A stretch of 45,475 bases of DNA from Flavobacteriaceae bacterium (GTDB lineage: Bacteria > Bacteroidota > Bacteroidia > Flavobacteriales > Flavobacteriaceae): contig JAQWGN010000006.1 of NCBI GenBank assembly GCA_029238215.1, forward strand, positions 1-45,475, in the 5' to 3' direction. Each line of letters starts with the position of its first letter. The first letter of the stretch is position 1. The notes beneath the pieces were generated by a model. It searched no databases, was not told the DNA's origin, and saw only the letters and a list, made by a program, of their open reading frames with translations. Position numbers and translations under genes: made by a program. Of this stretch, positions 23,104-37,710 are shown one piece after another.

Positions 23104-23176
23104 GACTTGGTAGCTCAGCTGGTAGAGCATCTCCCTTTTAAGGAGAGGGTCCTGGGTTCGAACCCCAGCCAAGTCA
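23104..23176 (+). tRNA. tRNA-Lys(TTT), copy 1
   Basis: A 73-nt cloverleaf: acceptor GACTTGG/CCAAGTC, D arm GCTC...GAGC, anticodon stem TCTCC/GGAGA with loop CTTTTAA (anticodon TTT), T arm CTGGG-TTCGAAC-CCCAG, discriminator A. The CCA end is not encoded. Confidence 0.97.
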
Positions 23177-23185
23177 CAAGTATCA

Positions 23186-23258
23186 GACTTGGTAGCTCAG
23201 CTGGTAGAGCATCTCCCTTTTAAGGAGAGGGTCCTGGGTTCGAACCCCAGCCAAGTCA
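23186..23258 (+). tRNA. tRNA-Lys(TTT), copy 2
   Basis: Identical over all 73 nt to the copy at 23104, separated from it by only 9 nt. The tandem pair is a recent or gene-converted duplication and is surely co-transcribed. Confidence 0.97.
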
Positions 23259-23272
23259 CTTCTTCACCAAAG

Positions 23273-23358
23273 GCGCACGTGGCGGAACTGGTAGACGCGC
23301 TAGGTTGAGGGCCTAGTGGGAGTTAAATCCCGTGGAGGTTCGATTCCTCTCGTGCGCA
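23273..23358 (+). tRNA. tRNA-Leu(GAG)
   Basis: An 86-nt class II tRNA with a long variable arm: acceptor GCGCACG/CGTGCGC, anticodon stem CTAGG/CCTAG with loop TTGAGGG (anticodon GAG), T loop TTCGATT, discriminator A. A T-rich run follows (23362-23369). The promoter of the MerR regulator begins about 40 nt downstream. Confidence 0.95.
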
Positions 23359-23400
23359 CGTCTTTTTTTAGCTTTTCTACTTCATCAAGAATTTATTTAC

Positions 23401-23438
23401 TAACTTTGTTTAATATTATCTTCACAAAGTTAAACAAA
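23401..23438 (+). promoter_or_regulatory. Promoter/operator of the MerR (CarH-like) gene
   Basis: TAACTTTG (23401-23408) is a TAnnTTTG -7 box. Overlapping it is an inverted repeat: TTTGTTTAAT (23405-23414), 14-nt spacer, GTTAAACAAA (23429-23438); 9 of 10 positions are symmetric and the right arm ends on the A of the start codon. The same element, in the same register to the -7 box, recurs before the photolyase operon (31953-31990). A protein bound here would cover the transcript start, so autorepression by the gene product is the natural reading. No clear -33 TTG. Confidence 0.75.
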
Positions 23439-24343
23439 TGAATCGCGTCAAAAATAGTTTTAGCATAAAGAACCTCGAACATCTCTCGGGAATTAAAGCA
23501 CACACGATTCGTATTTGGGAAAAACGGTACAATCTTTTTGAACCCGAAAGAACAGACACCAACATTAGAATGTATAATCTTGAGAACCTTCAAAAACTTC
23601 TCAACGTTACATTGTTATATAATAATGGATATAAAATTTCAAAGATTGCAAAGCAATCTCCCGATGAAATAAAGGAAAACATTCACAACCTTACCGTTAA
23701 CAAAAACTCTGACGACTGGTCTATTGGGCTCTTTAAACTAGCCATGATTAATTTTGATCAACGCATTTTTACAAAAACATTTAATGAGCTTTTAGAGCTG
23801 TATTCATTTAATGAAATATTTAAAAATGTTTTTATTCCATTATTAAATGAACTTGGTGTATTGTGGCAAACGAACTCTATAAGCCCATCTCATGAACACT
23901 TTATAACAAGTCTTATAAAACAAAAGATTCATTCGATTTGTGAGGATCTCCAGCTTAATGAACCGAAAAGAAAAGATAGAAGGTTTGTGTTATTCCTTCC
24001 CAGTAATGAAATACACGAGTTAGGCCTTTTATATTTACACTATGAAGTTTTGTCAAAAGGATTTCAATCTGTTTTTTTAGGTCAATCTGTTCCTATCGAA
24101 AGTTTAAACAACTTGGTTGATATAGGAGAACCAATAACGTTTATCTCTTACTTTACCATTGAGCCCACACAAGACAAAGTTGAAGCATATCTAAATACTT
24201 TTCACGCTGAAATTATTGAAAATATGGATAGTGAATTTTGGGTATTAGGCTATCAAGTGCAATTCATTAAAAAAGAATTACCCAATAAAATGCATTCATT
24301 CACTTCTATCGATCAACTGGTAGAAGCATTGGCACTTCTTTAA
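23438..24343 (+). CDS. MerR-family B12-binding light-responsive regulator (CarH/LitR type)
   Basis: 301 residues. N-terminal MerR winged helix (8-75: FSIKNLEHLSGIKAHTIRIW, WEKRYNLFEPERT, IRMYNLENLQKL). It is followed by a helical cap domain and a cobalamin-binding domain. The cap carries W-x9-EH (W143, E153, H154) and the B12 domain E-x-H-x-x-G (E191, H193, G196), the signature positions that hold adenosylcobalamin and its lower-axial histidine in CarH. In CarH the AdoCbl-bound tetramer represses DNA in the dark, and light breaks it up. It is followed by crtB and crtZ, and its operator is shared with the photolyase operon, so it probably controls both in response to light. Family and motifs are seen; AdoCbl use and light response are inferred. 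Confidence 0.88.
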   Translation: MNRVKNSFSIKNLEHLSGIKAHTIRIWEKRYNLFEPERTDTNIRMYNLENLQKLLNVTLLYNNGYKISKIAKQSPDEIKENIHNLTVNKNSDDWSIGLFKLAMINFDQRIFTKTFNELLELYSFNEIFKNVFIPLLNELGVLWQTNSISPSHEHFITSLIKQKIHSICEDLQLNEPKRKDRRFVLFLPSNEIHELGLLYLHYEVLSKGFQSVFLGQSVPIESLNNLVDIGEPITFISYFTIEPTQDKVEAYLNTFHAEIIENMDSEFWVLGYQVQFIKKELPNKMHSFTSIDQLVEALALL

Positions 24344-24422
24344 TAACTGGCACTCAATTTTTGTTGTGTTTCATTTTAAATAAATTATTCCACTATATTT
24401 ACATCAATCAAGGGAAATTAAT

Positions 24423-25262
24423 ATGAAGGCGTTATTTGATAATGTATCGCACCATTGCAGCAAAGTTGTTACTGAAACATACAGTACCTCTTTTTCTCTT
24501 GCGACCCGAATGCTCTCTAATGAAATTCGTCAAGACATTTATAACATCTATGGATTTGTTCGTTTTGCCGATGAGATTGTTGATTCTTTTCATAATTACA
24601 ACAAACCCATTTTGTTTGATCGCTTTGAACAAGCATTAAATGACGCCCTTACTGACACGATTAGCTTAAACCCAATCTTAAACAGTTTTCAAGAAACCGT
24701 TCATCGTTATAATATTGACCGCGAATATATCAATGCCTTTATGCAAAGTATGCGCTGGGATTTATCAAAGAAAGTATATGAAACTGAAGAAGAATACAAA
24801 CAGTACATCTATGGTTCGGCAGACGTTGTTGGATTGATGTGTTTAAAGGTATTTGTAAAAGGTGATACTGCATTATTTAATGAGTTAAAATCCTCAGCCA
24901 TGGGCTTGGGCTCTGCCTTTCAAAAAGTAAATTTTTTACGTGACCTTAAGGCAGATCATGATCAACTGGAACGCACATATTTTCCAAATATTGACATGCG
25001 TGACTTTAGTGAAGACTCAAAACAACTTATCATAGAAGAAATTGAGGCAGATTTTAAACTTGGGCTGTCGGGGATATTCAAATTACCTGATGATGCAAAA
25101 TTTGGTGTTTATACCGCGTATAAATATTATTTAAGGTTACTCAAAAAACTAAAGAATACACCGTCTACTCAAATAAAATCGAAGCGAATACGTGTACCCA
25201 ACTATCAAAAAGTAGATGTGCTCGCACGTTCTTTTATTCGCTATCGATTTAATGTTCTTTAA
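24423..25262 (+). CDS. crtB: Phytoene synthase
   Basis: 279 residues. Condenses two geranylgeranyl diphosphates to phytoene, the first committed step of carotenoid synthesis. Both Asp-rich motifs are present: the first as DEIVD (50-54, in VRFADEIVDSF) and the second as DLKAD (174-178, in KVNFLRDLKAD). SFSLATRML near 23-31 and YGSADVVGLMCLKVF are also typical. It lies 79 nt after the MerR gene and 11 nt before crtZ. TATATTTA before the start could be a weak promoter, so transcription may come from merR, from its own site, or both. The phytoene desaturase gene (crtI) usually next to it is missing here. Confidence 0.93.
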   Translation: MKALFDNVSHHCSKVVTETYSTSFSLATRMLSNEIRQDIYNIYGFVRFADEIVDSFHNYNKPILFDRFEQALNDALTDTISLNPILNSFQETVHRYNIDREYINAFMQSMRWDLSKKVYETEEEYKQYIYGSADVVGLMCLKVFVKGDTALFNELKSSAMGLGSAFQKVNFLRDLKADHDQLERTYFPNIDMRDFSEDSKQLIIEEIEADFKLGLSGIFKLPDDAKFGVYTAYKYYLRLLKKLKNTPSTQIKSKRIRVPNYQKVDVLARSFIRYRFNVL

Positions 25263-25273
25263 TTAATTCATCC

Positions 25274-25720
25274 ATGAGTTTGATTGTTCAACTTCTAGTT
25301 TTTATCACAACATTTCTAGTGATGGAATTTATGGCATGGTTTACTCATAAGTATGTGATGCACGGATTTTTATGGTCTATCCATAGAGATCACCACAAAA
25401 AAAACCATAAATCATGGTTTGAACGCAACGATTTATTCTTTATTTTCTATGCAGTAGTTAGTGCAGGTTGTGTAATTCTTTGGGGGGAATACCAATTCAC
25501 ACCTGGGTTAGCTATAGGTCTTGGGATATTCGCGTATGGATTGGCCTATTTCTTTGTTCATGATATTTTTATTCATCAACGATTTAAATTATGGCGAAAT
25601 GCAAATAACAGGTATGCACGTGGTGTAAGACGGGCTCATAAAATGCATCATAAACATTTGGATAAAGCACATGGCGAGTGTTTCGGCATGTTGTGGGTAC
25701 CAATGAAGTACTTTAAATAG
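25274..25720 (+). CDS. crtZ: Beta-carotene hydroxylase
   Basis: 148 residues, a membrane-bound di-iron hydroxylase of the fatty-acid-hydroxylase superfamily. All histidine clusters are in place: HKYVMH (25-30), HRDHH (37-41), FVHD (His96) and RAHKMHH (122-126). Hydrophobic stretches at about 3-22, 53-70 and 77-96 form the membrane part. It adds hydroxyls to the beta rings to give zeaxanthin, the common yellow pigment of marine flavobacteria. It lies 11 nt after crtB and its end overlaps the convergent ribH by 8 nt. Its substrate needs CrtI and CrtY, neither of which is encoded in this window. Confidence 0.93.
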   Translation: MSLIVQLLVFITTFLVMEFMAWFTHKYVMHGFLWSIHRDHHKKNHKSWFERNDLFFIFYAVVSAGCVILWGEYQFTPGLAIGLGIFAYGLAYFFVHDIFIHQRFKLWRNANNRYARGVRRAHKMHHKHLDKAHGECFGMLWVPMKYFK

Positions 25721-26180
25721 GGAAGTTTGCCATTTCTATTGCTGCAGCAGCAGCTTCAGCACCCTTATTGCCCAAAGCACCACCACTTCTAGACTTCGCT
25801 TGCTCCATTGTATCGTCTGTAAGAACTCCGAAAATAACTGGTGAAATGCCGAGAATATTTAGTTCTTTAATCCCTGAGGAAACTGCTTGACACACATAGT
25901 CAAAATGCGCTGTTTCACCTCGAATGACACTTCCAATAGCAATAACAGCATCTACCCCTGCATGAATGGCTCTTTTACAACCATAAATCAACTCAAAGCT
26001 TCCTGGTACTGGAATATGAATAATGTCGACACAACCCTTGGCCTCAAGTACTTTAAGAGCACCTTGGTATAAGTTATCTGTAATTGTAGAATTCCAGCCA
26101 GAAACAACAACAGCTATCCGCAAACCTTTTGCGCTAGGAATTTTTTCTAAATCCAATGCCGTATGTTGGGCAGTCGCCAT
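25713..26180 (-). CDS. ribH: 6,7-dimethyl-8-ribityllumazine synthase
   Basis: 155 residues. Joins 5-amino-6-ribitylaminouracil with dihydroxybutanone phosphate to form the lumazine precursor of riboflavin. Motifs: RIAVVVSGWNSTITDNL, VPGSFELIYGCKRAI, AVIAIGSVIRGETAHFDYVC (catalytic His in ETAHFD), PVIFGVLTDDTMEQA and GNKGAEAAAAAIEM. It lies 3 nt after the TPR membrane protein gene. Its product is also the antenna chromophore reported for the Fe-S photolyase class encoded at 35877, a possible functional link beyond supplying flavin. Confidence 0.96.
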   Translation of the reverse strand: MATAQHTALDLEKIPSAKGLRIAVVVSGWNSTITDNLYQGALKVLEAKGCVDIIHIPVPGSFELIYGCKRAIHAGVDAVIAIGSVIRGETAHFDYVCQAVSSGIKELNILGISPVIFGVLTDDTMEQAKSRSGGALGNKGAEAAAAAIEMANFPI

Positions 26181-26183
26181 AAG

Positions 26184-26936
26184 TTAGTTTTGTGCTTGTG
26201 CCAACAGCACTTTCGCTTTTGATGCCTCAGGAGCATCTTCGTAATCATTATTAAGTGTTGAAAGCATCAAAGCGGCTTTCTTATTTTCACCAATTGCGAG
26301 GGCAACTTGTGATCCTTTGAGTAAAAATCGTGGTGTGGTTAATTTATTCTCAGCAAATGAAGCTGCTCTGCTGTAGTATTCTAAAGCGTCGCTAAGTTGA
26401 TTGAGTTCCGTAAACGCATCACCAATACCTCCAAGAGCCAATGCTCCTAAAATAGGATCATCTGTAGTAAAAGTATCCAAATAGTCAATTGCCTTATCAA
26501 ACTCTCCTTGCTGTAAGAAAATCATCCCTGCATTATACGTAGCTAATTCAGAAATGCTTGTACTGCCATATTTATCCGCAATTTGAATAAAACCAGGTGC
26601 AACGCCATCACCATTTAAAGCTAAATTGTATAACGAATCTTGTACCGTTGGGTCCTCCAATCCTTCTTTAAAATAGGCTTGCGCTTGTGCTATGGCATTT
26701 GTAGATTCTTCGTTCAAAGGTTTTATCACAAAATTCACGTATGCTAAATACCCAAGTACAGCAATAGCTACTGAACCTATTAATAGTAAAATATACTTTT
26801 GATTTCGAGCTACCCATGCCTCAGCACGTCCTGCTGTAGTGTCAAGTGTTGTAAACACCTCAGCAGTTACACTGTCTTGTTCAGGTGCTCTTTCTTGTGA
26901 TTTTATTTTACCTCCGCGTTTTTTGTACGTAGCCAT
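26184..26936 (-). CDS. TPR-containing membrane protein
   Basis: 250 residues: a basic cytoplasmic N-terminus (MATYKKRGGKIKSQERAP), one transmembrane helix (about 48-70, KYILLLIGSVAIAVLGYLAYVNF), then an extracytoplasmic helical domain with TPR-like repeats (AYFKEGL, ATYNAGMIFLQQGEFDKAIDYLDTF, ALGGIGDAFTELNQLSDALEYYSRAASFA). The topology resembles YfgM, which assists the SecYEG translocon, but the precise role here is unknown. It precedes ribH on the minus strand and diverges from recF. Confidence 0.85.
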   Translation of the reverse strand: MATYKKRGGKIKSQERAPEQDSVTAEVFTTLDTTAGRAEAWVARNQKYILLLIGSVAIAVLGYLAYVNFVIKPLNEESTNAIAQAQAYFKEGLEDPTVQDSLYNLALNGDGVAPGFIQIADKYGSTSISELATYNAGMIFLQQGEFDKAIDYLDTFTTDDPILGALALGGIGDAFTELNQLSDALEYYSRAASFAENKLTTPRFLLKGSQVALAIGENKKAALMLSTLNNDYEDAPEASKAKVLLAQAQN

Positions 26937-27035
26937 TTGAAAAAAGTTATGAAGGCAAAAATAAAATTTTTATTCCAATGAAGGTGTTGTCAAATTGTTT
27001 ATTTTCAATCGTACATTTACAACTAATTTATTCAG

Positions 27036-28124
27036 ATGAGTAATTTACGGCTCAACACCCTACATCTCACCCACTATAAAAACGTTTTAACAGGTCAATA
27101 CCAGTTTGAAGAAGCTATTCATTGTTTTGTTGGAAATAACGGAAAAGGGAAGACTAATACGTTAGATGCCATTTATCATTTGGCCATGGGGAAAAGTTAT
27201 TTTACCTCAATAAACGCACATACGATCAATCATGACGCTACTTTTATGCGTCTTGATGGGCATTTTGATCGTGACGGGGCGGTAGAACGAATTGAATGTA
27301 AATTGCAACGTGATGAAAGCAAGCAATTTATTAGAAATGGAAAGAAGTATAAAAAACTTTCTGACCATATTGGCTTATTACCCACCGTTATGATCTCACC
27401 TTCAGATGTAGATTTGATTAATGAAGGAAGTCAAACAAGAAGAAGTTTTGTTGATCGACTTATCGGACAAGCAGACAAAACCTACCTCCAACAATTAATT
27501 AAGTATCAAAAGATCTTGCTACAACGAAATGCTCTTCTAAAACAAATGGGACGCTTTGCTACGCAAGACAATGGCACTTTAGGAATCTATAACGAACAGT
27601 TAGCACAACTTGGCTCACCTATTCACGAGGCACGAAAATCATACCTAGCATCATTTGAACCGCTTTTTAAAAAGCGATATGCAACAATTAGTGGAAGTAA
27701 GGAACAGGTTGACTTACATTACATAAGCCAGCTTTTTGACAATGACTTTCACACGCTTTTGGAAGGAGCAACCCTTAAAGACAAACAGGCACAGTATTCT
27801 ACTGTAGGAATCCACAAAGATGATTTGGATTTTATCATTGAAGGATATCCCATTAAAAAATTTGGTAGTCAAGGGCAACGTAAATCGTTTTTGATTGCTT
27901 TAAAATTGGCGCAGTTTGACATGCTTAAGCAATCGACATCCATTACTCCGCTGCTTCTTCTGGACGATATTTTTGATAAATTGGATGAACAGCGAGTGTC
28001 AGAAATCATTAACTTGGTACATGAATCTTCGTTTGGGCAGCTATTTATTTCGGACACCCATGCTGCTAGGACTGAGGAAGTTATAAAACAGACCCAACAA
28101 CCTTTTAAATTACATCATTTGTGA
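27036..28124 (+). CDS. recF: DNA replication and repair protein RecF
   Basis: 362 residues of the SMC-like ATPase RecF, which with RecO and RecR loads RecA at single-strand gaps. Walker A GNNGKGKT (33-40), the ABC signature KKFGSQGQRKSFLIALKLAQ (about 272-291) and Walker B TPLLLLDDIFDKLD (about 301-314), with VMISPSDVDLINEGSQTRRSFVDRLI typical of RecF. Its stop overlaps the GTG start of the following lipoprotein gene. The DUF721 gene two places down is its common partner in flavobacteria. Confidence 0.96.
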   Translation: MSNLRLNTLHLTHYKNVLTGQYQFEEAIHCFVGNNGKGKTNTLDAIYHLAMGKSYFTSINAHTINHDATFMRLDGHFDRDGAVERIECKLQRDESKQFIRNGKKYKKLSDHIGLLPTVMISPSDVDLINEGSQTRRSFVDRLIGQADKTYLQQLIKYQKILLQRNALLKQMGRFATQDNGTLGIYNEQLAQLGSPIHEARKSYLASFEPLFKKRYATISGSKEQVDLHYISQLFDNDFHTLLEGATLKDKQAQYSTVGIHKDDLDFIIEGYPIKKFGSQGQRKSFLIALKLAQFDMLKQSTSITPLLLLDDIFDKLDEQRVSEIINLVHESSFGQLFISDTHAARTEEVIKQTQQPFKLHHL

Positions 28125-28522
28125 GAAATGTATTTATTATTGTTTTTTTCTTGTGCTTTGGATGTAGTTCAAGAGTAAATCAAGAAAGTATTTCGTTGCT
28201 TGAGGGGTATTGGGTTATTGAGCAGGCTTTGGCTCCCAATGGAGAAAGCCGGCCTTATTCAGGTGTTGTGGAAGTTGATTATTTTCAACTATCTAATCAA
28301 AAAGGGATTCGAAAAAAAATAACCCCAACTTTTGGAAACCAGCTTAGCAGTACCAATGATGCGCTTGCTTTCACTATTAATTTCACAAAAACTGAAACTT
28401 ATATATCCTATTCTAAAGGTGGGCATGATTGGCAAGAAGAAATTGTGTCCCTCACTAACGAAAGACTGGAACTAAAGGATTCTAGGGGGGTTGTATTTCG
28501 TTATAAACGCTATTTGCCATGA
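28121..28522 (+). CDS. Small lipoprotein, lipocalin-like
   Basis: 133 residues starting at a GTG that overlaps the recF stop (GTGA). A lipoprotein signal (MRNVFIIVFFLCFGC) predicts lipidation at Cys15. The mature part is beta-rich with LEGYWVIEQALAPNGE, FTINFTKTETYISYSKGGHDW and LELKDSRGVVFRYKRY, in the style of small lipocalin-like proteins of flavobacteria. Function is unknown. It is wedged between recF and the DUF721 gene with overlaps on both sides, so it is co-translated with them. Confidence 0.75.
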   Translation: MRNVFIIVFFLCFGCSSRVNQESISLLEGYWVIEQALAPNGESRPYSGVVEVDYFQLSNQKGIRKKITPTFGNQLSSTNDALAFTINFTKTETYISYSKGGHDWQEEIVSLTNERLELKDSRGVVFRYKRYLP

Positions 28523-28815
28523 GTGCACGTAAAGACGAACCACAAGCGCTAAACGATGTGTTAAAACAGTTTTCAAAGTCAAAAAAACTTGAAAAAGGAT
28601 TGGATAATGCAAAAGTAGAAGAACTTTGGTCAAAACTTTTGGGTCCAGGAATACAATCTTACACAGAATCGATTCGTTTGGTAGGAGACACACTTTATGT
28701 TGGGCTTACATCTTCTGTATTAAGAGAAGAACTAAGTTATGGAACAGAAAATATTATTTCCATGTTAAATGAAGGGCTTCAAAAAGCAGTAATAAAAAAA
28801 CTTATCCTTCGTTAA
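28519..28815 (+). CDS. DUF721 protein (DciA-like)
   Basis: 98 residues. The pattern [42 protein letters not shown] fits DUF721/DciA, a family of helicase-loader-like proteins that act with DnaB in many bacteria lacking DnaC. It overlaps the upstream lipoprotein stop by 4 nt (ATGA), and its end overlaps the convergent ndk by 4 nt. A replication role is inferred from the family. Confidence 0.85.
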
Positions 28816-29231
28816 AAGCGATCGCGTTCTGAAAAATGAAAGGCAATCTCTAATGCTGCATTTTCATCACTATCGGATCCGTGAACCGCATTTTCACCCA
28901 TAGAAGTCGCATATAACTTTCGTATGGTCCCTTCCGCTGCTTCTGATGGATTAGTAGATCCAATTAATGTGCGAAAATCAGTCACTGCATTTTCTTTTTC
29001 TAAAACTGCCGCAACTATGGGGCCGCTTGTCATAAACGAAACCAATTCACCAAAAAATGGACGTTCGTTATGAACGGCATAAAAGGCTTCGGCATCGGCT
29101 TGAGTTAACTGGGTCATTCGAAGGGCTGCAATTCGAAAACCAGCCTCTGAAATTTTATTTAAAATAGCTCCGGTGTATCCATTAGATACTGCGTCTGGCT
29201 TAATCATGGTAAAGGTCTGATTCGTTTTCAT
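28812..29231 (-). CDS. ndk: Nucleoside diphosphate kinase
   Basis: 139 residues from the ATG at 29231 ([15 protein letters not shown]). A TTG-initiated frame from 29249 is ruled out because that codon lies inside the -7 promoter box (29247-29254). The enzyme balances NTP and dNTP pools through a phosphohistidine; the active-site segment is [20 protein letters not shown]. Also visible: [41 protein letters not shown] and the [16 protein letters not shown] loop. Confidence 0.96.
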
Positions 29232-29246
29232 GCGCAATAATTTTTG

Positions 29247-29254
29247 CAAACCTA
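29247..29254 (-). promoter_or_regulatory. Bacteroidota -7 promoter box for ndk
   Basis: TAGGTTTG on the minus strand, 15 nt before the ndk ATG at 29231. It fixes the start choice. Confidence 0.6.
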
Positions 29255-29309
29255 AGGAAAATCAACTTATAGACCTGCTCAAGTTTATACTTATTCGTAG
29301 ATTTGACTA

Positions 29310-30062
29310 ATGATGCGAATAGCACTTATTGGCACGGGAAACCTAGCCATTCATATGGCACAAGTCTTTAAAAGGCACAAGGAAATAAGCTGTGTGCAAT
29401 GGATTGGTAGAAAGATGACATCTCCCCTTACTTGCGATTCCTTGCCCTATTTCAACACATTCCAACCCAGTATTGCGGTTGATGTTTGTATACTCGCCAT
29501 TTCAGATGATCAGATTTCTTCAGTTGCAGAAGCATTACCTAAAAACGATTTTTTAATTGTACACACGGCAGGAGCTGTTTCAAAAAACGTAATGGATTCA
29601 CATTCCAGAACAGGAGTTTTTTACCCGCTGCAAAGCTTTTTAAAAGACTTCCCTGTAGATTGGAATGATATCCCATTATGCATTGATGCTAGCTCAAATA
29701 AAGACATCCAGATTCTAAAATCTCTTGCTGCCATATTTGGCAACAATACGTATCAAATTTCAGAAGATCAACGCCTTAAATTACACACGGCTGCCGTGTA
29801 TATCAATAATTTTTGTACACATTTACTTGCCACTAGCAAAGAAATAACCAACGAAGCTAAACTCCCCTTTTCACTGCTAAAACCCCTAATTAAGGAAACC
29901 TTCATGCGTAGTAATGCCGATGATATTTTATCATTACAAACAGGCCCTGCCAAACGCAATGACACAAGAACACAGAATAAGCATTTACAACTCTTAGACA
30001 ACAATCAAGCAAGACTATACCGCATTTTAAGTGAATCTATATTTAACACACACAACACATGA
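29310..30062 (+). CDS. DUF2520 Rossmann-fold protein
   Basis: 250 residues (the ATG at 29313 is equally possible). The N-terminal NAD(P)-binding fold (MRIALIGTGNLAIHMAQVF) is followed by CILAISDDQISSVAE and FLIVHTAGAVSKNVM, then the DUF2520 helical domain (LHTAAVYINNFCTHLLA, LPFSLLKPLIKET, GPAKRNDTRT). It resembles ketopantoate reductase/pyrroline-carboxylate-reductase-like dehydrogenases, with substrate unknown. It overlaps the next gene by 4 nt and forms a three-gene unit with the HAD phosphatase and Maf. Confidence 0.85.
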   Translation: MMRIALIGTGNLAIHMAQVFKRHKEISCVQWIGRKMTSPLTCDSLPYFNTFQPSIAVDVCILAISDDQISSVAEALPKNDFLIVHTAGAVSKNVMDSHSRTGVFYPLQSFLKDFPVDWNDIPLCIDASSNKDIQILKSLAAIFGNNTYQISEDQRLKLHTAAVYINNFCTHLLATSKEITNEAKLPFSLLKPLIKETFMRSNADDILSLQTGPAKRNDTRTQNKHLQLLDNNQARLYRILSESIFNTHNT

Positions 30063-30586
30063 GCTATAAACAAGAATTTCGTCACATCACCACTTTTGTT
30101 TTTGATGTAGATGGCGTATTTACAGATGGGGGAATTACCATTATGCCCGATGGAGACATGATTCGAACCATGAACACTAAAGACGGATATGCCGTAAAAG
30201 CAGCATTACATGCTGGCTTCAATGTTGCTATTATATCTGGCGGAACAAATGAGGCGGTACGTCTTCGGCTACAACAATTGGGAGTGAATGATGTTTATTT
30301 GGGCGCACACGATAAAGGCCCTGTTTTAAAGGAGTATGCTGAAAAAAACAAGCTCTCTTTTGATGAAATTTTATTTATGGGGGATGACATTCCTGACATT
30401 TCAGCAATGAATTTGGCACGGCTTGGCTGTTGCCCAAACGATGCTGTTCCTGAAGTTTTAGAAGCCGCTGCCTATATTTCTCATAAAGACGGGGGAAAAG
30501 GATGTGCTAGAGACGTTATTGAACAAGTGCTTAAAGTTCAAGGAAAATGGGGGAAGTTGACAGATGCTAGAAATGACAGCAAATGA
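30059..30586 (+). CDS. KdsC-like HAD phosphatase
   Basis: 175 residues. HAD motif I FDVDGVFTDGG (16-26), motif II VAIISGG, and motif IV GDDIPDISAM, with CCPNDAVPEVLEAA as in 3-deoxy-D-manno-octulosonate-8-phosphate phosphatase (KdsC). KdsC makes free Kdo for LPS. The C0-type cap-less build and length fit KdsC, but an unrelated substrate is possible. It overlaps both neighbours by 4 nt. Confidence 0.85.
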   Translation: MSYKQEFRHITTFVFDVDGVFTDGGITIMPDGDMIRTMNTKDGYAVKAALHAGFNVAIISGGTNEAVRLRLQQLGVNDVYLGAHDKGPVLKEYAEKNKLSFDEILFMGDDIPDISAMNLARLGCCPNDAVPEVLEAAAYISHKDGGKGCARDVIEQVLKVQGKWGKLTDARNDSK

Positions 30587-31158
30587 TCCATAAAATATAT
30601 TTGGGATCTGGATCACCACGCCGCGTAGAACTTCTTCAACAAATGAACATCCCATTTACTCAACGGGTACTTGATGTTGACGAACTTTATCCGGAAGATT
30701 TAAGTGATGTAGAAATCACAGATTTTTTAGCCAAACTTAAAGGAAAAGTACAACAGCAAAAGCTAGCTCTTAACGAACTTGCACTTACAGCAGACACCAT
30801 TGTTTGGCACAACAATATTGCCTTAGGAAAACCGAAAAATGAGGACGAGGCTATAGAAATGTTAATTGCTCTCTCTGGAGAAACACACCAAGTAATCACT
30901 TCTGTGTGTCTAAGCACTAAAGACAAACAACGCTGTATTAACGACACTACCCATGTTACGATGACAGCATTGAGTCAAGACGAAATTACATATTATATCC
31001 GCAAGTTTAAACCTTTTGACAAGGCGGGGGCATATGGTATTCAAGAATGGATTGGACGTGTTGGTGTTTCGCGAATTGAAGGATCGTATACTAATGTTGT
31101 GGGACTTCCTACACACAAAACTTACGCCCTTTTAAAACCTTATATAGTTAACCTTTAG
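30583..31158 (+). CDS. maf: Maf-like nucleotide pyrophosphatase
   Basis: 191 residues with LGSGSPRRVELLQQM (the phosphate-binding loop), ALTADTIVWHNNIALGKPKNEDEAIEML, and FDKAGAYGIQEWIGRVGVSRIEGSYTNVVGLP. The family hydrolyses non-canonical or UTP/dTTP nucleotides to the monophosphates; YhdE/YceF subgroup choice is not attempted. It overlaps the KdsC-like gene by 4 nt. Confidence 0.92.
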   Translation: MIHKIYLGSGSPRRVELLQQMNIPFTQRVLDVDELYPEDLSDVEITDFLAKLKGKVQQQKLALNELALTADTIVWHNNIALGKPKNEDEAIEMLIALSGETHQVITSVCLSTKDKQRCINDTTHVTMTALSQDEITYYIRKFKPFDKAGAYGIQEWIGRVGVSRIEGSYTNVVGLPTHKTYALLKPYIVNL

Positions 31159-31173
31159 CTAACACAAGACGCT

Positions 31174-31181
31174 TACATTTG
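31174..31181 (+). promoter_or_regulatory. Bacteroidota -7 promoter box for aquaporin
   Basis: TACATTTG ends 4 nt before the aquaporin ATG, so the mRNA would have almost no leader. Confidence 0.5.
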
Positions 31182-31185
31182 CACT

Positions 31186-31839
31186 ATGTCTATACGCACA
31201 GCACTTTACAGTGAATTTATTGGAACTTTTGCTATGGTTTTTTGCGGAACTGCCGCCATGGCAGTAAACGAAACCACTGGAGCCGTCGCACACGAAGGAG
31301 TTGCGATTACTTGGGGTTTAATCGTTATGGCCATGATTTATGCTTTTGGCGATCTCTCTGGAGCTCACTTTAATCCAGCGGTAACACTTGCATTTGCAGT
31401 TTCAAAACGATTTCCTTGGTCAAAAGTATTTCCATATTGGATGACACAAGCAACTGGAGCTATTGTTGCGAGTTTAGCAGTTCATGCATTACTACCCCAA
31501 AGTGAATATATTGGAGCCACTATTCCAACAATACCCCACATGAGCGCTTTTTGGCTTGAGCTTTTGCTTTCATTTATGCTGATGATAACCATACTGCATA
31601 TAAGTACGGGAAGTAAAGAAATTGGACCTGTGGCCGGAGTTGCCGTAGGAAGTATTATTTTATTAGAAGCCATGTTTGCTGGACCATTAACCAATGCCTC
31701 AATGAACCCAGCACGTTCATTAGGGCCAGCGTTGGTTGGAAATCACTGGGAACCTATGTGGGTTTATAGTACTGCACCATTTGCAGGAATGCTTCTTGCG
31801 GTAGGGGCTTTTAAATTGTTTGTAACTGCTCCAAAATAA
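31186..31839 (+). CDS. Aquaporin (MIP family)
   Basis: 217 residues with six predicted transmembrane helices and two half-helix NPA boxes: NPA at 63-65 (GAHFNPAVTLAF) and NPA at 174-176 (NASMNPARSLGPAL), the second followed by the selectivity-filter Arg177. GPLTNASMNPARS resembles the plant NIP-like bacterial group more than AqpZ, so glycerol or small solutes besides water are possible. It is the last gene before the photolyase operon but has its own promoter and no copy of the shared operator. Confidence 0.93.
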   Translation: MSIRTALYSEFIGTFAMVFCGTAAMAVNETTGAVAHEGVAITWGLIVMAMIYAFGDLSGAHFNPAVTLAFAVSKRFPWSKVFPYWMTQATGAIVASLAVHALLPQSEYIGATIPTIPHMSAFWLELLLSFMLMITILHISTGSKEIGPVAGVAVGSIILLEAMFAGPLTNASMNPARSLGPALVGNHWEPMWVYSTAPFAGMLLAVGAFKLFVTAPK

Positions 31840-31950
31840 AGCCTTAGCACTTCCTGTACCATCAAAACAACATTACGCTGGTATTTCTTACGCCAATTTT
31901 GTACTGTTAATCAAACTGAAAACTTAGTGATGCAGCACTTTAAAGCTTGT

Positions 31951-31990
31951 TAATTTTGTTTAACTATTTTATTATAAAGTTAAACAAAAT
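31951..31990 (+). promoter_or_regulatory. Promoter/operator of the photolyase operon
   Basis: TAATTTTG (31951-31958) is a TAnnTTTG -7 box. A perfect 12+12 inverted repeat overlaps it: ATTTTGTTTAAC (31953-31964), 14-nt spacer, GTTAAACAAAAT (31979-31990). It shares arm sequence, spacer length and register to the -7 box with the element before the MerR gene (28 nt from the start of the box to the start of the right arm in both). A tetrameric MerR-type repressor such as CarH would fit this long site. The start codon is 27 nt downstream. Confidence 0.8.
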
Positions 31991-32017: not shown

Positions 32018-32476
32018 ATGTATCAGTACACAACCAAACAGGAATTACCTATTACCATGCAAGAGGCGTGGGTGTTTCTGTCAGATCCGAAAAATTTAAA
32101 ACGAATCACTCCTGCCTACATGGGTTTCGACATATTATCTGGTGCAGACCGCAGCATGTTTCCTGGACAAATAATTCAATACAGGTTGACTCCATTACTA
32201 GGAATTCCATTTCGTTGGGTTACTGAAATAACACACGTTAAAGAAGGTTCGTATTTTGTTGATGAACAACGTTTTGGACCATATACTTTTTGGCACCATA
32301 AACATTTTATCTATCCCACAGAAAAAGGGGTTATAATGGAAGATATTGTTGATTACAAGCTCCCATTAGGTCTTTTGGGGCGGATAGCTCACTTCTTATT
32401 TGTGCGTTTTAAAGTCAAGCAAATTTTTAGCTTCCGGGAAAAGGCACTTGAACAAATTTTTAATTTAAAAAAATGA
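32018..32476 (+). CDS. SRPBCC-family protein of the photolyase operon
   Basis: 152 residues of the START/SRPBCC hydrophobic-ligand fold: QELPITMQEAWVFLSDPKNLKRITP at the N-terminus, then SMFPGQIIQYRLTPLLGIPFRWVTEIT, FVDEQRFGPYTFWHHKHFI and EDIVDYKLPLG. The family binds lipids or other hydrophobic ligands, and no ligand can be assigned here. It is the first gene after the shared operator, and its stop overlaps the next start (ATGA). Similar genes occur beside photolyase genes in other bacteria, so a light- or membrane-stress role is a reasonable guess only. Confidence 0.82.
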   Translation: MYQYTTKQELPITMQEAWVFLSDPKNLKRITPAYMGFDILSGADRSMFPGQIIQYRLTPLLGIPFRWVTEITHVKEGSYFVDEQRFGPYTFWHHKHFIYPTEKGVIMEDIVDYKLPLGLLGRIAHFLFVRFKVKQIFSFREKALEQIFNLKK

Positions 32477-33174
32477 CAAAAACATATTTATTTATTGGAG
32501 GTAGCTACGGAATTGGGAAGGAAATTTTACCCCTACTCCCCTCAGATGCAAAAGTAATTGTAGCATCCAGAACCCGTGAGGGTCTTGAAGGTGAAAATAT
32601 TCAGCATATACCATTTGATGTGTTGACTGACACGTTACCAATAGAACAACTTCCTTCACAATTGGATGGTTTTGTATACTGTCCAGGAAGCATTAATTTA
32701 CGTCCTTTCAGAGGGCTTAAAGAAGAAGCCTTTAAAAATGATTTTGAGATTAATGTTCTAGGTGCTGTACGCACCTTACAACAAATACAACCCTTGCTAA
32801 CAGCAAGTGAGCAAGCTAGTGTTGTTTTGTTCAGTACAGTTGCTGTTCAAACCGGAATGCCGTTCCACGCAAGTGTTGCCGCTTCAAAAGGAGCACTTGA
32901 AGGCTTGGGCCGTTCATTGGCCGCTGAGTGGGCACCAAAAGTTCGCGTGAATGTCATTGCCCCCTCTATTACAGATACTCCATTAGCCAATCGTTTTTTG
33001 AATAATGATGCTAAAAAAGAAAAGGCAGCTTTACGGCATCCGTTAAAACGTATCGGCACTACAAAGGATGTTGCGCAACTAGCCGCTTTTCTTCTTTCAG
33101 AAAACAGCAGTTGGATGACAGGACAAGTACTTGGTCTCGATGGAGGTATGTCATCTTTAAATGTAAGTGGATGA
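32473..33174 (+). CDS. SDR-like protein lacking the catalytic tyrosine
   Basis: 233 residues of the short-chain dehydrogenase fold. The nucleotide-binding loop GGSYGIG (9-15), the FEINVLGA helix (Asn94), the Ser121 position (VLFSTVAV) and the VRVNVIAPS and TGQVLGLDGG segments are typical. The active-site Y-x-x-x-K reads V-A-A-S-K (Val135, Lys139), so the proton-donating tyrosine is replaced by valine. Normal dehydrogenase chemistry is therefore doubtful; a cofactor-binding or structural role is possible. It overlaps both neighbours by 4 nt within the photolyase operon. Confidence 0.85.
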   Translation: MTKTYLFIGGSYGIGKEILPLLPSDAKVIVASRTREGLEGENIQHIPFDVLTDTLPIEQLPSQLDGFVYCPGSINLRPFRGLKEEAFKNDFEINVLGAVRTLQQIQPLLTASEQASVVLFSTVAVQTGMPFHASVAASKGALEGLGRSLAAEWAPKVRVNVIAPSITDTPLANRFLNNDAKKEKAALRHPLKRIGTTKDVAQLAAFLLSENSSWMTGQVLGLDGGMSSLNVSG

Positions 33175-34463
33175 TATTATTTTGGTTTCGTCGGGATTTA
33201 CGAATAGTAGATAATGCTGGTTTTTTTCATGCACTTTCTTCTGAAGATTCCGTGTTACCCGCTTTTGTTTTTGACGAAACGATACTAAAAAAACTTCCTG
33301 AAAACGATGCCCGTGTTGGATTTATCCATAGAGAACTTCATACCCTTAATGATACGTTCAAAAAATACAACAGCAAGCTACTTGTGACCCATGGAAATCC
33401 TGCAGATTGTATTACTTCATGGTGCAATGAATACAACATTACTGCTGTTTACACCAACGAAGATTACGAACCGTATGCCAGAGAACGTGACGATACAATA
33501 AAGAACCTTCTTGAAGCACAAGGTATTGCGTTTAAAACGTTTAAAGATCATGTGCTGTTTGGTCCAGATCAAGTATTAAAAAAAGATGGCACTCCTTATA
33601 AAGTGTACACTCCATACTCAAGAGTGTGGATTGCCCAGATGGAGGCACAAGGCATTCCCAACTATCCTGCTGAAAAGCATTTGGATAAATTACACACCAT
33701 GGAATTGCCACCATTGCCTACACTAGAAACCATAGGGTTTAAAGCGTGTCACAATCCTATTCCAAAACCAAACAATTCATTAGAACTAATGAATGCTTAT
33801 GATGCAACGCGAAATTTCCCCGCTTTAGATAGTACAAGCCGCTTAGGCATTTATTTACGATTTGGAGTGGTGTCTGTAAGAGAACTTGTTAGAAAGGCTC
33901 GTAAAAGTACCTTGCCTACATTTTTAAAAGAATTGGTGTGGCGTGAATTTTTTATGCAAATCCTTTGGCACTATCCACATACTACGCAATCAAGTTTTAA
34001 GCCTCAATACGATCGAATTTTGTGGAAAAACAACGAAGAAGAATTTGAGAAGTGGTGCTCAGGAAATACAGGGTATCCATTAGTAGACGCTGGCATACGA
34101 GAATTGAACCAAACAGGATTTATGCACAACCGTGTGCGCATGCTAGTAGGTAGTTTCCTGTGCAAGCATTTATTAATCGATTGGCGGTGGGGCGAAGCCT
34201 ATTTTGCCGAAAAGCTTTTGGATTACGAACAGGCCAGTAATGTTGGAAACTGGCAATGGGTCGCTGGCTGTGGTGTAGATGCAGCGCCCTATTTTCGAGT
34301 ATTTAACCCAACTGAACAAGTGAAGAAATTTGACAAGGAACATCAATACATAAAAAAATGGGTTCCAGAATATCAATCGCCAGACTACCCTGCTCCTATG
34401 GTAGATCACAAAGAGGCTCGGATACGTTGTTTGAACACCTATAAAGAAGGGTTGAATTCGTGA
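33171..34463 (+). CDS. phr: Deoxyribodipyrimidine photolyase, class I type
   Basis: 430 residues from the ATG at 33171, which overlaps the SDR stop; an upstream in-frame start at 33111 lies inside the SDR gene and is rejected. The N-terminal antenna domain begins [15 protein letters not shown]. The C-terminal FAD domain has [37 protein letters not shown] (about 295-320), [12 protein letters not shown] and [30 protein letters not shown] (about 350-380). Trp residues in the ILWKNN, LIDWRWG and NWQW segments match the electron-transfer triad of Escherichia coli photolyase, and the Asn contacting FAD N5 is kept. It most likely repairs cyclobutane pyrimidine dimers with blue light. Confidence 0.92.
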
Positions 34464-34606
34464 GAGGAGTAAAAAAAACCAACCTCCCTCAAAAGAATTG
34501 TGTCAGTTGTGGATTGCCCTTCACATGGCGAAAAAAATGGCGCAAGGACTGGGAAAACGTAAAATATTGTAGTGAACGATGCAGAAAAGAAAAACAACAG
34601 GATTAG
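34460..34606 (+). CDS. DUF2256 zinc-ribbon microprotein
   Basis: 48 residues from a GTG whose last two bases start the photolyase stop (GTGA). Four cysteines (C14, C17, C37, C41, as CxxC...CxxxC) frame the conserved core [15 protein letters not shown] and VKYCSERCR, the DUF2256 signature. The fold should be a tiny zinc ribbon rich in Trp and basic residues, suited to nucleic acid or protein contact. The last 28 nt are read in a second frame as the start of the CRY-DASH gene. The family often accompanies cryptochrome/photolyase genes, but its function is unknown. Confidence 0.85.
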
Positions 34607-35877
34607 TTTGGTTTAGAAACGATTTACGCGTTTCAGACCAGCATGCTTTATCCCAAGCGGTAATGGCACATGATCGGGTTGTTGGCATATACCACATTCC
34701 CACAAGCTGGCTAAAAACAACCCCTTGGGGATTTAAGAAAATGGAAGGCTTTCGTGCAAAATTTTTACTAGAAACCTTACAACAACTCAGAAGCGATTTA
34801 GATGCAATCAATATTTCGTTATGGATTACTACAGGAAATTGGAAGGAAACGCTATTGGAACTTCAACAAAAACACCAAGTTACTGATCTATACGGACAAA
34901 AAGAATGGACACAAGAAGAAGTTGACGATGAAATGGAAATCCCAACTGATATTACAACACATTGGCACTACGATCAGTTTTTATTTCATCCCGATGATAT
35001 TCCGATGACTGTTGAGAACATACCAGAAGTATTTACGGTTTTTAGAAAGAAGTGTGAAAAGCATAGCATTGTTAGGGCTCCAATAGAAACACCTCCAGCA
35101 ATGCCACCAGAAAACAAACTAAGTAATACCCCAGAAACGCCTAGTTTATTGTCGCTAGGTTATAGCAAAAATAAAGAAGATAGTAGAACAGCAATTCCAT
35201 TTAGCGGAGGAGAAAAAGCTGCTTGGGAACGCATGAACGAATACTTTTGGGAAACGGAACAACTTTCATATTATAAAAAAACGCGAAATGGATTATTGGG
35301 AAAAAAATATAGCTCAAAACTATCCCTTTGGTTGGCTTTTGGATCTATTTCTCCGCGTTCCATCTATGCTTCGGTAAAAAAGTACGAACAAAAAATAATA
35401 AAAAATGACTCAACCTATTGGCTTGTTTTTGAACTTATCTGGAGAGATTACTTTAAATACATTTCACTGAAACATCAAAATCGTGTGTTTCACCTAGGTG
35501 GGATTTTACAAAAATCATATGAATGGGAAGACAATAAACATCGTATCCAAAAATGGATTGATGGAAACACACCTGAACCTTTTGTTAATGCAAACATGAG
35601 AGAACTAAGATGCACAGGTTTCATGAGTAATAGGGGGAGACAAAATGTAGCAAGCTTTTTTGCAAAAGAATGGAAACTCGACTGGCGTATTGGTGCCGCT
35701 TATTTCGAGGCCATGCTCATAGATTATGATGTGCATAGCAATTATGGGAATTGGATGTATAATGCTGGTGTTGGAAATGACCCACGCGACAGGAAATTTA
35801 ATGTGGCGTGGCAAGCTGAGCGTTATGATCCAAATAAAAAGTACCAAAATACCTGGCTTCAAACAACACTATTCTAA
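34579..35877 (+). CDS. Cryptochrome DASH
   Basis: 432 residues. N-terminal photolyase domain ([21 protein letters not shown]) and the DASH-specific FAD region [27 protein letters not shown] (about 333-360), followed by [49 protein letters not shown] proteins bind FAD and folate and repair dimers mainly in single-stranded or looped DNA; some are photoreceptors. The ATG lies within the end of the DUF2256 gene (28-nt overlap) and its stop overlaps the next start by one base (TAATG). Confidence 0.94.
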
Positions 35878-37406
35878 TGGAAATACGACTTATTTTAGGA
35901 GATCAGCTTAACGAAAATCATTCTTGGTTTACGGAAATTGACAGAAACGTATGCTACATAATGCTTGAAATGCGTCAGGAAACGGATTATGTAAAGCACC
36001 ATATCCAAAAGGTAGTAGGGTTTTTTGCTGCAATGCGAACGTTTGCACGTCAATTAGAAAACAACGGGCATACTGTAATTTATTACACAATTGATGATCC
36101 AAAAAACACGCAAAACATTCAAAAAAATGTTGAGCATTTGGTGACTCTTTTAGAAGCGACTTCATTTGCATACCAACTTCCAGACGAATACCGACTGGAT
36201 AAACAAATGAAAACCATTGCCGAGCAGCTTAGTATTCCAACCAAAGTATACGACTCCGAACACTTTTTAACTACCAGAAGTGAGCTAGCCACTTTTTACC
36301 AAGGGAAAAAAACCATGGTAATGGAGTTCTTTTACCGGTATATGCGGAAAAAACATCAATATTTAATGGTTGATGAACAACCCGAAGGTGGAAGTTGGAA
36401 CTATGATAAATTTAACAGAAACACCTGGAAAGGTGAGAGTATCCCCACGCCATACAAAACAGATGCGACAGTGGCCAAACAGATCTATCCTATAATAAAA
36501 GCAGCTGGAATAGAGACCATTGGAACTTTCGATGAAAACAACTTTTTATTTGCGGTTTCGAGAAAAGAATCTCTTGCACAATTGGATTATTTCTGTGAAC
36601 ACTTACTTCAAGACTTTGGTACTTATCAAGATGCGATGCATCAAGACGAAACTAATTTATTTCATGCGCGCATATCCTTTAGCCTGAACATAAAACTTAT
36701 AGACCCCGCAGAAGTAATCGATCGTGCAATTGCGGCATATAGAGCGAATACTGAACATATTAGTTTGTCGCAAATTGAAGGTTTTGTACGCCAAATATTG
36801 GGATGGCGCGAATATATTAGAGGACTGTATTGGAAAGAGATGCCTCACTACAAACAAAAAAATGAGCTTAATAATTTTGGGAAACTTCCTGCGTTCTATT
36901 GGACCGGTAATACCAAAATGAATTGTTTGAAGACAAGCATCAAAAACAGCTTGGATAATGCTTACGCACATCACATTCAACGCCTTATGATTACAGGAAA
37001 CTTTGCTTTGCTTTTACAAACGCACCCTGATGAGGTAGATGATTGGTATTTGGGAATTTATGCAGATGCTGTTGAATGGGTACAATTACCAAATACTCGA
37101 GGCATGAGTCAATATGCAGATGGAGGTATTCTGGCAACAAAACCTTATGTGTCCTCTGGATCATATGTGAATAAAATGAGTAATTACTGTGATGCATGTA
37201 GTTATAATAAAAAGAAACGTACAGGTGAAGACGCTTGTCCATTCAATAGCTTGTATTGGAATTTTTTGGATGATAAAAAAGAAGCGTTAAAAAAGAATAA
37301 TCGTATGGGAATGATGTTTAGCCTACTCGGGAAAATCAAGCCTGAAGAGCTCGCTGAAATTAAAGAACGTGCATACAAAATAATGGAAGAACCGGATGCC
37401 TATTAA
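35877..37406 (+). CDS. Fe-S cluster bacterial photolyase ((6-4) type, FeS-BCP)
   Basis: 509 residues, the family length. The N-terminus [18 protein letters not shown] is typical of the class once called deoxyribodipyrimidine photolyase-related protein. Four cysteines sit at 350, 438, 441 and 454 (MNC, CDAC, DAC), the same numbers as the [4Fe-4S] ligands of Agrobacterium PhrB as I recall them, and the active-site pair H365-H366 (AHHIQRLM) is also at the same positions. These enzymes repair (6-4) photoproducts with FAD, the cluster and 6,7-dimethyl-8-ribityllumazine as antenna. It overlaps the CRY-DASH stop by one base and the next gene by 11 nt. Confidence 0.93.
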   Translation: MEIRLILGDQLNENHSWFTEIDRNVCYIMLEMRQETDYVKHHIQKVVGFFAAMRTFARQLENNGHTVIYYTIDDPKNTQNIQKNVEHLVTLLEATSFAYQLPDEYRLDKQMKTIAEQLSIPTKVYDSEHFLTTRSELATFYQGKKTMVMEFFYRYMRKKHQYLMVDEQPEGGSWNYDKFNRNTWKGESIPTPYKTDATVAKQIYPIIKAAGIETIGTFDENNFLFAVSRKESLAQLDYFCEHLLQDFGTYQDAMHQDETNLFHARISFSLNIKLIDPAEVIDRAIAAYRANTEHISLSQIEGFVRQILGWREYIRGLYWKEMPHYKQKNELNNFGKLPAFYWTGNTKMNCLKTSIKNSLDNAYAHHIQRLMITGNFALLLQTHPDEVDDWYLGIYADAVEWVQLPNTRGMSQYADGGILATKPYVSSGSYVNKMSNYCDACSYNKKKRTGEDACPFNSLYWNFLDDKKEALKKNNRMGMMFSLLGKIKPEELAEIKERAYKIMEEPDAY

Positions 37407-37710
37407 CCCTAAAAACCCTGCACCTTTGGATACGAAACATCCACTTACAGAAAGAGATATTGATAGAATTATCGAAATGGGATGGGAAGACCGTACCCCA
37501 TTTGATGCCATCACACTTCAGTTTGGCCTAAAGGAACAAGAAGTTATTACCATTATGCGGCAAAACATGAAACCGAATAGTTTTAAACTTTGGCGAAAAA
37601 GAGTTCAAGGAAGAAAAACAAAACACGTAAAAAAGCGTACGGATGAAGTTGGACGGTTTAAATGCAGCCGTCAACGTGGTATAAGCAACAATAAAGTCTC
37701 TAAACGCTAA
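37396..37710 (+). CDS. TIGR03643-family small protein
   Basis: 104 residues. The core (about 15-80: HPLTERDIDRIIEMGWEDRTPFDAI, LQFGLKEQEVITIMRQNMKPNSFKLWRKRVQGRKTKH) matches the small TIGR03643 family found in bacteria and plants, often next to cryptochrome/photolyase genes; the DRTPFDAI..QFGL part looks helix-turn-helix-like. A basic extension of about 24 residues follows. It overlaps the Fe-S photolyase by 11 nt and ends the operon. No biochemical function is known to me. Confidence 0.8.
   Translation: MPINPKNPAPLDTKHPLTERDIDRIIEMGWEDRTPFDAITLQFGLKEQEVITIMRQNMKPNSFKLWRKRVQGRKTKHVKKRTDEVGRFKCSRQRGISNNKVSKR

Follow-up and report, generated by a model that had tools for sequence, protein, structure and literature searches.

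A 34-bp inverted repeat as candidate operator of a CarH/LitR-like MerR protein before pigment, photorepair and rhodopsin genes of Bacteroidota

Contig 1 (JAQWGN010000006.1) of the Flavobacteriaceae bacterium assembly GCA_029238215.1, a stretch of 45,475 nucleotides that was analysed in its full length and is called the window here, carries two gene runs headed by the same DNA element, the 34-bp inverted repeat TTTGTTTAAY-N14-RTTAAACAAA. One copy (O1) is found at a gene for a MerR-type regulator that is followed by carotenoid genes, and the other (O2) stands before a set of photolyase genes (Table 1). The two sites share one operator pattern, the operator is tied to the MerR protein, and this protein bears a vitamin B12 signature; the repeat is probably the operator of a CarH/LitR-like MerR that works in a CarH-like manner on pigment, photorepair and, probably, rhodopsin genes. 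The source genome comprises 1,667,493 bases in 19 contigs and is 88% complete.

Table 1. Coordinates of the operators and genes of the window
Feature	Position	Strand	Description
Operator O1	23405..23438	.	TTTGTTTAAT-N14-GTTAAACAAA; heads the merR-crtB-crtZ-like gene run
CarH/LitR-like MerR regulator	23438..24343	+	MerR helix-turn-helix (HTH), four-helix B12 cap, predicted Rossmann B12 domain
crtB, phytoene synthase	24423..25262	+	Pfam SQS_PSY 3e-46
crtZ-like gene	25274..25720	+	Putative carotenoid hydroxylase, named from position and His motifs
Operator O2	31955..31988	.	Perfect dyad TTTGTTTAAC-N14-GTTAAACAAA; with flanks ATTTTGTTTAAC...GTTAAACAAAAT
SRPBCC-like small protein	32018..32476	+	First gene of the photolyase operon
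Short-chain dehydrogenase/reductase (SDR)	32473..33174	+	Pfam adh_short_C2 9e-40
DNA photolyase (cyclobutane pyrimidine dimer type by similarity)	33174..34463	+	Pfam DNA_photolyase and FAD_binding_7
DUF2256 small protein	34460..34606	+	GTG start; Pfam PF10013 2e-21; easily missed seventh operon gene
Cryptochrome DASH	34579..35877	+	TIGR02765 2e-149, above cut-off
Deoxyribodipyrimidine photolyase-related protein (DPRP)	35877..37406	+	Pfam PF04244 1e-72
DUF2805 protein	37396..37710	+	Last operon gene; Pfam PF10985 1e-37

The A of the merR start codon is the last base of O1, and O2 is separated by 29 bp from the SRPBCC-like leader of the photolyase operon. Just upstream of O1 (23104-23359) lie two tRNA-Lys (ttt) genes and one tRNA-Leu (gag) gene. 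Searches of Pfam and NCBIfam gave no match for the gene behind crtB, whose histidine motifs are presumably those of a carotenoid hydroxylase and which also stands after crtB in two relatives (G067 and G043). Likewise, no match in Pfam or NCBIfam was obtained for the small protein leading the photolyase operon, which we take to be SRPBCC-like; it was matched in 123 of 149 genomes of the family. The photolyase was matched by the NCBIfam model for 8-HDF photolyase at 1e-108, under its cut-off. Judged from strand and spacing, the seven genes of the photolyase locus appear to form one operon. At the merR loci of the window (24343-24423) and of G067, crtI is missing between merR and crtB, and the order in G043 is merR, a crtI-like gene, crtB and the crtZ-like gene.

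In the original prediction, the two sites had been placed at 23405-23438 and 31953-31990, their arms had been called the same and the photolyase operon had been given seven genes. Both positions were confirmed, the second being 31955-31988 with two flanking bases per side, and the gene count is correct with DUF2256 included. The arms follow the same pattern, but O1 is no perfect dyad, as its left arm ends in T and that of O2 in C. The equal distance of 28 nt from a TAnnTTTG box to the right arm cannot serve as independent evidence, since this box takes its TTTG from the left arm and adds no more than the TA upstream of it; the resulting box at -3 was found in 38 of 202 gene-facing orientations versus 7 of 91 others, a weak enrichment mostly explained by the arm. 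The absence of any other non-coding copy in the 45 kb was borne out by a scan of the window with up to three mismatches, which returned O1 and O2 only, each on both strands (four rows); 0.08 rows were expected from 100 dinucleotide shuffles, none of which gave four. In the whole source genome the exact pattern occurs only twice, at the merR start codon and before the photolyase operon, so that the genome-wide check proposed at the time yielded no unrelated sites. When three mismatches were allowed, two additional sites with two mismatches each were found, and the reversed pattern used as a control gave three; therefore, any site other than the two exact copies calls for independent support. 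One of the additional sites, located between htpG and a KAS III-like gene (C2:98111-98144; L274:4112-4145), is no more than a candidate, since a single match with two mismatches is within the control rate. An exact site in the listed stretch L091 also precedes a KAS III gene.

The occurrence of the pattern was analysed at two scales. In a family sample of 149 genomes, drawn evenly with one genome per genus, 103 genomes hold 239 sites with at most one mismatch, compared to eight for the reversed pattern (a control counted by eye). A scan for the exact pattern in one genome per species of 84,980 species gave at least 119 stretches, and 117 of those listed belong to Bacteroidota: 78 Flavobacteriia, 15 Cytophagia, six Chitinophagia, three Sphingobacteriia, two Saprospiria, two Bacteroidia and 11 without a named class. 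The remaining two listed stretches (L135 and L151), one from Planctomycetota and one from Bdellovibrionota, were counted as exceptions and are probably misnamed contigs of metagenome-assembled genomes (MAGs); their sites adjoin PTPS and TetR_C_23 genes. In the symmetrised profile of 119 distinct sites the arm is extended by one T (75%), and G and C are nearly excluded at spacer positions 12-13. The idea that each arm holds a complete CarH 11-mer subsite (nAnnTnnACAn) was rejected, as the logo keeps only T-nn-ACA and A is not enriched at position 11. Tandem operators with nearly fixed spacing were observed in G034, G017 and G049 (43 bp), G107 (42 bp) and G255 (44 bp) and in L088 (55 bp), those of L041 (G017) and L063 (G049) lying between fasciclin and mnmA genes; such spacing suggests that two oligomers may bind cooperatively.

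The presence of the operator follows the presence of the MerR protein. Within the family, a site with at most one mismatch was found in 100 of 120 genomes with the MerR versus three of 29 without it (Fisher's exact test, p = 2e-13), and in a phylum sample of 296 genomes in 38 of 64 versus one of 232 (p = 2e-29), both values being uncorrected for kinship. Thirty-eight of the 39 site-bearing genomes of the phylum sample have the MerR, the exception being G411; among the three family exceptions, two are MAGs (G079 and G147, 81% and 73% complete) and the third (G116) has its single site inside an open reading frame (ORF) of 210 amino acids. In one genus (g128), a single genome (G344) is devoid of both MerR and site, and 16 other sampled members possess both. 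Sites are also found at the merR genes themselves: at the 105 loci with the common recognition helix described below, the window included, sites with up to three mismatches were present upstream in 46, downstream in 59 and on either side in 82, compared to one upstream and none downstream for the reversed pattern. In 30 of these 105 loci the right arm lies over the merR start codon as called.

A natural exchange in the recognition helix provides a further tie between protein and site. Divergent MerR proteins of the family carry a helix of the type KAHTLRKWE (LRK), which elsewhere reads KAHTIRIWE (IRI), and at the LRK merR loci the upstream dyad keeps its geometry and has a C at arm position 6 (TTTGTC...GACAAA), a variant found in 11 of the 149 family genomes. 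For the comparison of helix classes, 121 loci from 119 of the 120 MerR genomes were used (G106 was left out). T-type sites were found at 95 and C-type sites at five of the 105 IRI loci, four of these five being hybrids with one arm of each kind, and the eight LRK loci comprise six with C-type sites and one with a T-type site that is most likely a hybrid (Fisher's exact test, 4e-6 and 5e-6, values that do not stand for independent events because the switch needs only one or two changes on the protein tree). The other eight loci are three LRI (T-type site at two), three IRM (T-type site at two) and one each of LRV and IRA (no T-type site), the LRV locus belonging to G135, a genome that additionally holds an LRK MerR and the C-type sites. 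In five genomes (G014, G028, G038, G066 and G135), C-type sites lie before merR, with a fasciclin gene in divergent orientation; others precede the SRPBCC photolyase leader in G032 and the PTPS gene in G066, and a few stand before genes outside the named clusters. Thus, a sister MerR clade has a sister operator before the same kinds of genes, which ties the protein to the site. A phylogeny-corrected test was discarded, as one or two independent pairs give it no power; what gives the switch its weight is that several promoters changed jointly.

The MerR of the window shows the features of CarH proteins. An N-terminal MerR winged-helix domain (PF13411, MerR_1, 1e-12) is followed by the B12 cap, a four-helix bundle (PF02607, B12-binding_2, 4e-11). 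PF02310 gave no match in the Pfam scan and the Rossmann domain rests on prediction, namely an AlphaFold2 model from 22 sequences (pLDDT 87.5, pTM 0.68) in which this domain is complete. With this model, the best Foldseek matches in the PDB were Thermus thermophilus CarH (TtCarH) chains (E 6e-15), at a TM score of 0.59 for the whole chain, in which the domains are turned against each other, and of about 0.8 for the cobalamin domain. In phmmer searches, Thermus CarH (5c8d) and LitR (3whp) matched residues 8-243 at 2e-14. Among 53 orthologues, the Wx9EH motif is kept (W143 and E153 in all, H154 in 52), as is the axial histidine of ExHxxG (H193 in all, G196 in 45). The residues W143, E153, H154 and H193 correspond to W131, E141, H142 and H177 of TtCarH, which are described as contacts of adenosylcobalamin (AdoCbl) (PMC11796333). 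Like CarH/LitR genes, merR is located beside carotenoid genes, namely crtB in the window and, in the order site, merR, crtI-like gene and crtB, in G043; the MerR of the window presumably controls the adjacent carotenoid genes. The predicted Rossmann domain sets it apart from class II LitR proteins with their four-helix bundle alone. A cob(I)alamin adenosyltransferase (PF01923) was found in the source genome and in 137 of the 149 family genomes, including most of those without the MerR, and four MerR-bearing genomes (G008, G048, G062 and G064) gave no match.

The genes behind the sites of loci L001-L004, L035-L064 and L065-L183 were surveyed by reading outward from each site in both directions and taking the nearest gene up to 350 bp away, which resulted in 207 site-gene pairs in clusters named from one representative each. 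Due to the fact that at most one stretch per family genome and only the listed loci of the scan are covered, the figures are no full counts; tandem sites and loci present twice (L046/L131, L049/L104 and a repeat in L109) count double, and the number of distinct genes is given after a slash. The largest clusters are fasciclin genes (28/26, often divergent from mnmA, 12/10), extracytoplasmic function (ECF) sigma factors (22/19) and crtI-like genes directly downstream (17/15; PF01593 oxidases named by position), followed by the SRPBCC photolyase leader (11), PTPS (8), TetR_C_23 (7), TonB receptors (7), rhodopsin (6), flavin reductase (5), MORN-like proteins (5), merR (4), GTP cyclohydrolase I (4), DUF2911 (4), blh (3), photolyase (2), SDR (1) and other small clusters, and 41 of the 207 pairs fall into no named cluster. 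At seven ECF loci (L066, L088, L095, L105, L130, L134 and L175) a full-length merR orthologue lies on the same stretch. This arrangement, found mainly in Cytophagales and Chitinophagales, hints at a two-step cascade. In Streptomyces, the CarH-type MerR LitR is encoded beside the ECF sigma factor LitS; several of the present loci resemble this system, which differs by phylum.

The second of the additional sites of the source genome, with two mismatches, is located at C10:133160, flanked by a rhodopsin gene (PF01036, 3e-38) on one side and by blh (PF15461, and TIGR03753 above its cut-off) on the other. At this locus (C10:132432-134116; L273:4433-6117), the proteorhodopsin and blh genes are divergent with the degenerate operator between them. 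Across 30 rhodopsin loci of the family, the present one included, a site with at most two mismatches within 400 bp before the gene was found in 13; the reversed pattern and 20 shuffled patterns gave none. For the photolyase leader (the 30 best SRPBCC matches), again with the present locus included, the figure was likewise 13 of 30 with no match for reversed and shuffled patterns. Longer stretches were taken for five photolyase clusters; G145 and G122 belong to the 14 loci without any site, and for G145 the head of the gene run lay outside the stretch taken. In G122, and also in G017 from outside the set of 30, the SRPBCC gene lies further inside a longer run that includes GTP cyclohydrolase I and SDR genes and bears a site with one or two mismatches at its head. 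In G043, sites with two mismatches each were found at merR and at the photolyase locus, with the gene order of the window.

Accordingly, the proposal of one operator common to the merR-crt run and the photolyase operon and recognised by the MerR gains support from co-occurrence, promoter conservation and the matched change of helix and operator. Conservation at orthologous promoters was seen in many relatives and not in all. The regulon as drawn at the time, merR and the photolyase operon, was too narrow, as genes for rhodopsin/blh, ECF sigma factors, pterin/folate and fasciclins have sites before them as well, and so was its limitation to flavobacteria, as the sites are spread over Bacteroidota.

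Concerning the promoter, a TAnnTTTG box (-7 box) at operator position 18 was found in 26 of 202 gene-facing orientations versus one of 91 others (mean of the other offsets 0.5). An operator that lies over promoter and start codon suits repression. The MerR encoded at 23438 would bind the 34-bp inverted repeat directly, probably in dimeric or tetrameric form so that both arms are occupied by DNA-binding domains. Under its control would then be its own merR-crt run and the photolyase operon with its seven genes, and probably also, elsewhere in the genome, proteorhodopsin and blh as a divergent pair. Our best guess is CarH-type repression in the dark with release by light: in the dark, MerR with bound AdoCbl would occupy the operator, which overlaps the promoter, and in the light the Co-C bond would be cut, the MerR would leave and the genes for pigment, photorepair and light pump would be switched on together.

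Several observations weigh against this interpretation. The MerR of the window scores 72.1 bits with the NCBIfam CarH equivalog model NF052513 against a cut-off of 400 and is therefore a relative, not an equivalog. The operator is a single inverted repeat with N14, as opposed to the tandem direct repeats nAnnTnnACAn of TtCarH, and no convincing -33 element was seen by eye at either window site. A site with at most one mismatch is missing in 20 of the 120 family genomes and 26 of the 64 genomes of the phylum sample that have the MerR; among genomes with the divergent MerR proteins of families f3, f4 and f9 only one of 12 has a site, and all eight MerR genomes outside the class have none. The co-occurrence statistics ignore kinship, and on the protein tree K26 needs two changes, one of them forced, which amounts to one or two events. 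Seventeen of the 30 rhodopsin loci are without a site under the above thresholds (one has a match with three mismatches, five with four and 11 none), as are 17 of the 30 photolyase-leader loci (two with three mismatches, one with four, 14 none). The nearest relative, G067, whose photolyase-leader locus is one of these 14, has an exact merR site and none with at most two mismatches at its photolyase genes or its rhodopsin locus. Finally, G008 and G064, both 99% complete, have MerR and operator but no PF01923 match; another transferase or another ligand is possible there.

These two genomes also speak for the most serious of the other explanations, which we consider rather unlikely: that the MerR binds the operator and light acts through a partner photoreceptor (LOV) or through a signal such as the cobalamin level instead of AdoCbl. 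A very similar gene set (phrB, SDR, cryB and folE) is controlled by class II LitR, which has a LOV partner in P. mendocina (PMC9758184), and CarA of M. xanthus keeps the motif and acts without B12 (PMC8156234). Yet the four-helix bundle is all that class II proteins retain, while here a Rossmann domain is predicted and the axial histidine is conserved; the wide occurrence of the adenosyltransferase argues in the same direction, yet it extends to most genomes without the MerR. Somewhat less probable again is that the MerR activates, sitting between promoter elements like classical MerR activators. The better supported register, in which the operator lies upstream and extends as far as the -7 box (positions 18-25), would fit such a role, but O1 extends to the start codon, and at 30 of the 105 merR loci the ATG lies under the right arm, which suits a block, and the CarH/LitR proteins described in the literature cited here repress.

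That a different regulator binds the repeat and the MerR is a mere target appears very improbable. The sites before seven TetR_C_23 genes and 19 distinct ECF genes among the loci listed make these the candidates, but neither gene explains the operator change that accompanies the MerR helix, and a TetR_C_23 gene itself heads the photolyase operon in G122. Chance AT-rich palindromes, as might be expected from arms with 80-90% A+T in AT-rich genomes, can be regarded as already refuted by the shuffled and reversed controls of the window and the 149 genomes and by the position of the sites: only one of 121 listed exact sites lies deep inside an ORF of at least 100 amino acids, although such ORFs cover 88% of the stretches. 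CarH-like action of the MerR through the repeat is the interpretation that we regard as most likely.

Control of pigment and photolyase genes by CarH/LitR proteins is already known elsewhere. The class I proteins, CarH of Thermus thermophilus, Bacillus megaterium and Myxococcus, share with the MerR of the window the order of MerR HTH, B12 cap and Rossmann domain, Wx9EH and the axial histidine, adjoining carotenoid genes and an operator over the promoter; they differ in sequence (about 20% identity in the structural match), and the regulon predicted here is far wider. In Thermus, the operators of CarH are built of direct repeats of 11 bp (PMC8156234). Class II LitR of Pseudomonas (PplR/PmlR), with the consensus T(G/A)TACA-N12-TGTA(C/T)A, resembles the present system in its photolyase, SDR, cryptochrome and folate targets and in two arms at a fixed spacing, and differs by the missing Rossmann domain, the LOV partner and the operator sequence; rhodopsin or carotenoid targets are not mentioned in the parts of the source consulted (PMC9758184). 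MliR of the marine flavobacterium Bizionia argentinensis was rejected as counterpart of the window MerR, as this MerR-type protein is described as having no effector domain and acting in iron homeostasis (PMC9478572). In Chryseobacterium lacus, carotenoid is made in the light and a hypothetical protein acting like CarA/LitR was guessed by the authors (PMC7064467), rhodopsin genes of Nonlabens rise with light (PMC4831467), and sigma factors for rhodopsin genes are discussed for Dokdonia, with no regulator named in the text seen (PMC3587595). No description of the operator or of a Bacteroidota CarH regulon was found among the papers listed from the open-licence literature, which was the scope of the search, with RegPrecise and subscription papers outside it; a text search for the arm letters was uninformative, the letters being in one paper part of a primer sequence with a ribosome-binding site.

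Taken as a whole, and with less confidence than for the operator assignment itself, it seems rather likely that one B12-type MerR photoreceptor commands a sunlight regulon of Bacteroidota through one inverted-repeat operator, comprising carotenoids, photolyases and the pterin/folate cofactors they use, fasciclin-like surface proteins, ECF sigma factors, and proteorhodopsin together with the enzyme for its retinal. The operator would have switched once or twice from T to C in both arms, together with I26 to K and with the kinds of genes kept, and the MerR would turn out to be the light switch of proteorhodopsin in flavobacteria, a regulator not named so far. The operator names a candidate regulator for flavobacterial rhodopsin and predicts target genes in many sequenced strains, and its T and C types could serve synthetic biology as two naturally paired repressor specificities. 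If this is true, the supply of vitamin B12 would be tied to both phototrophy and UV repair in one of the major marine phyla.

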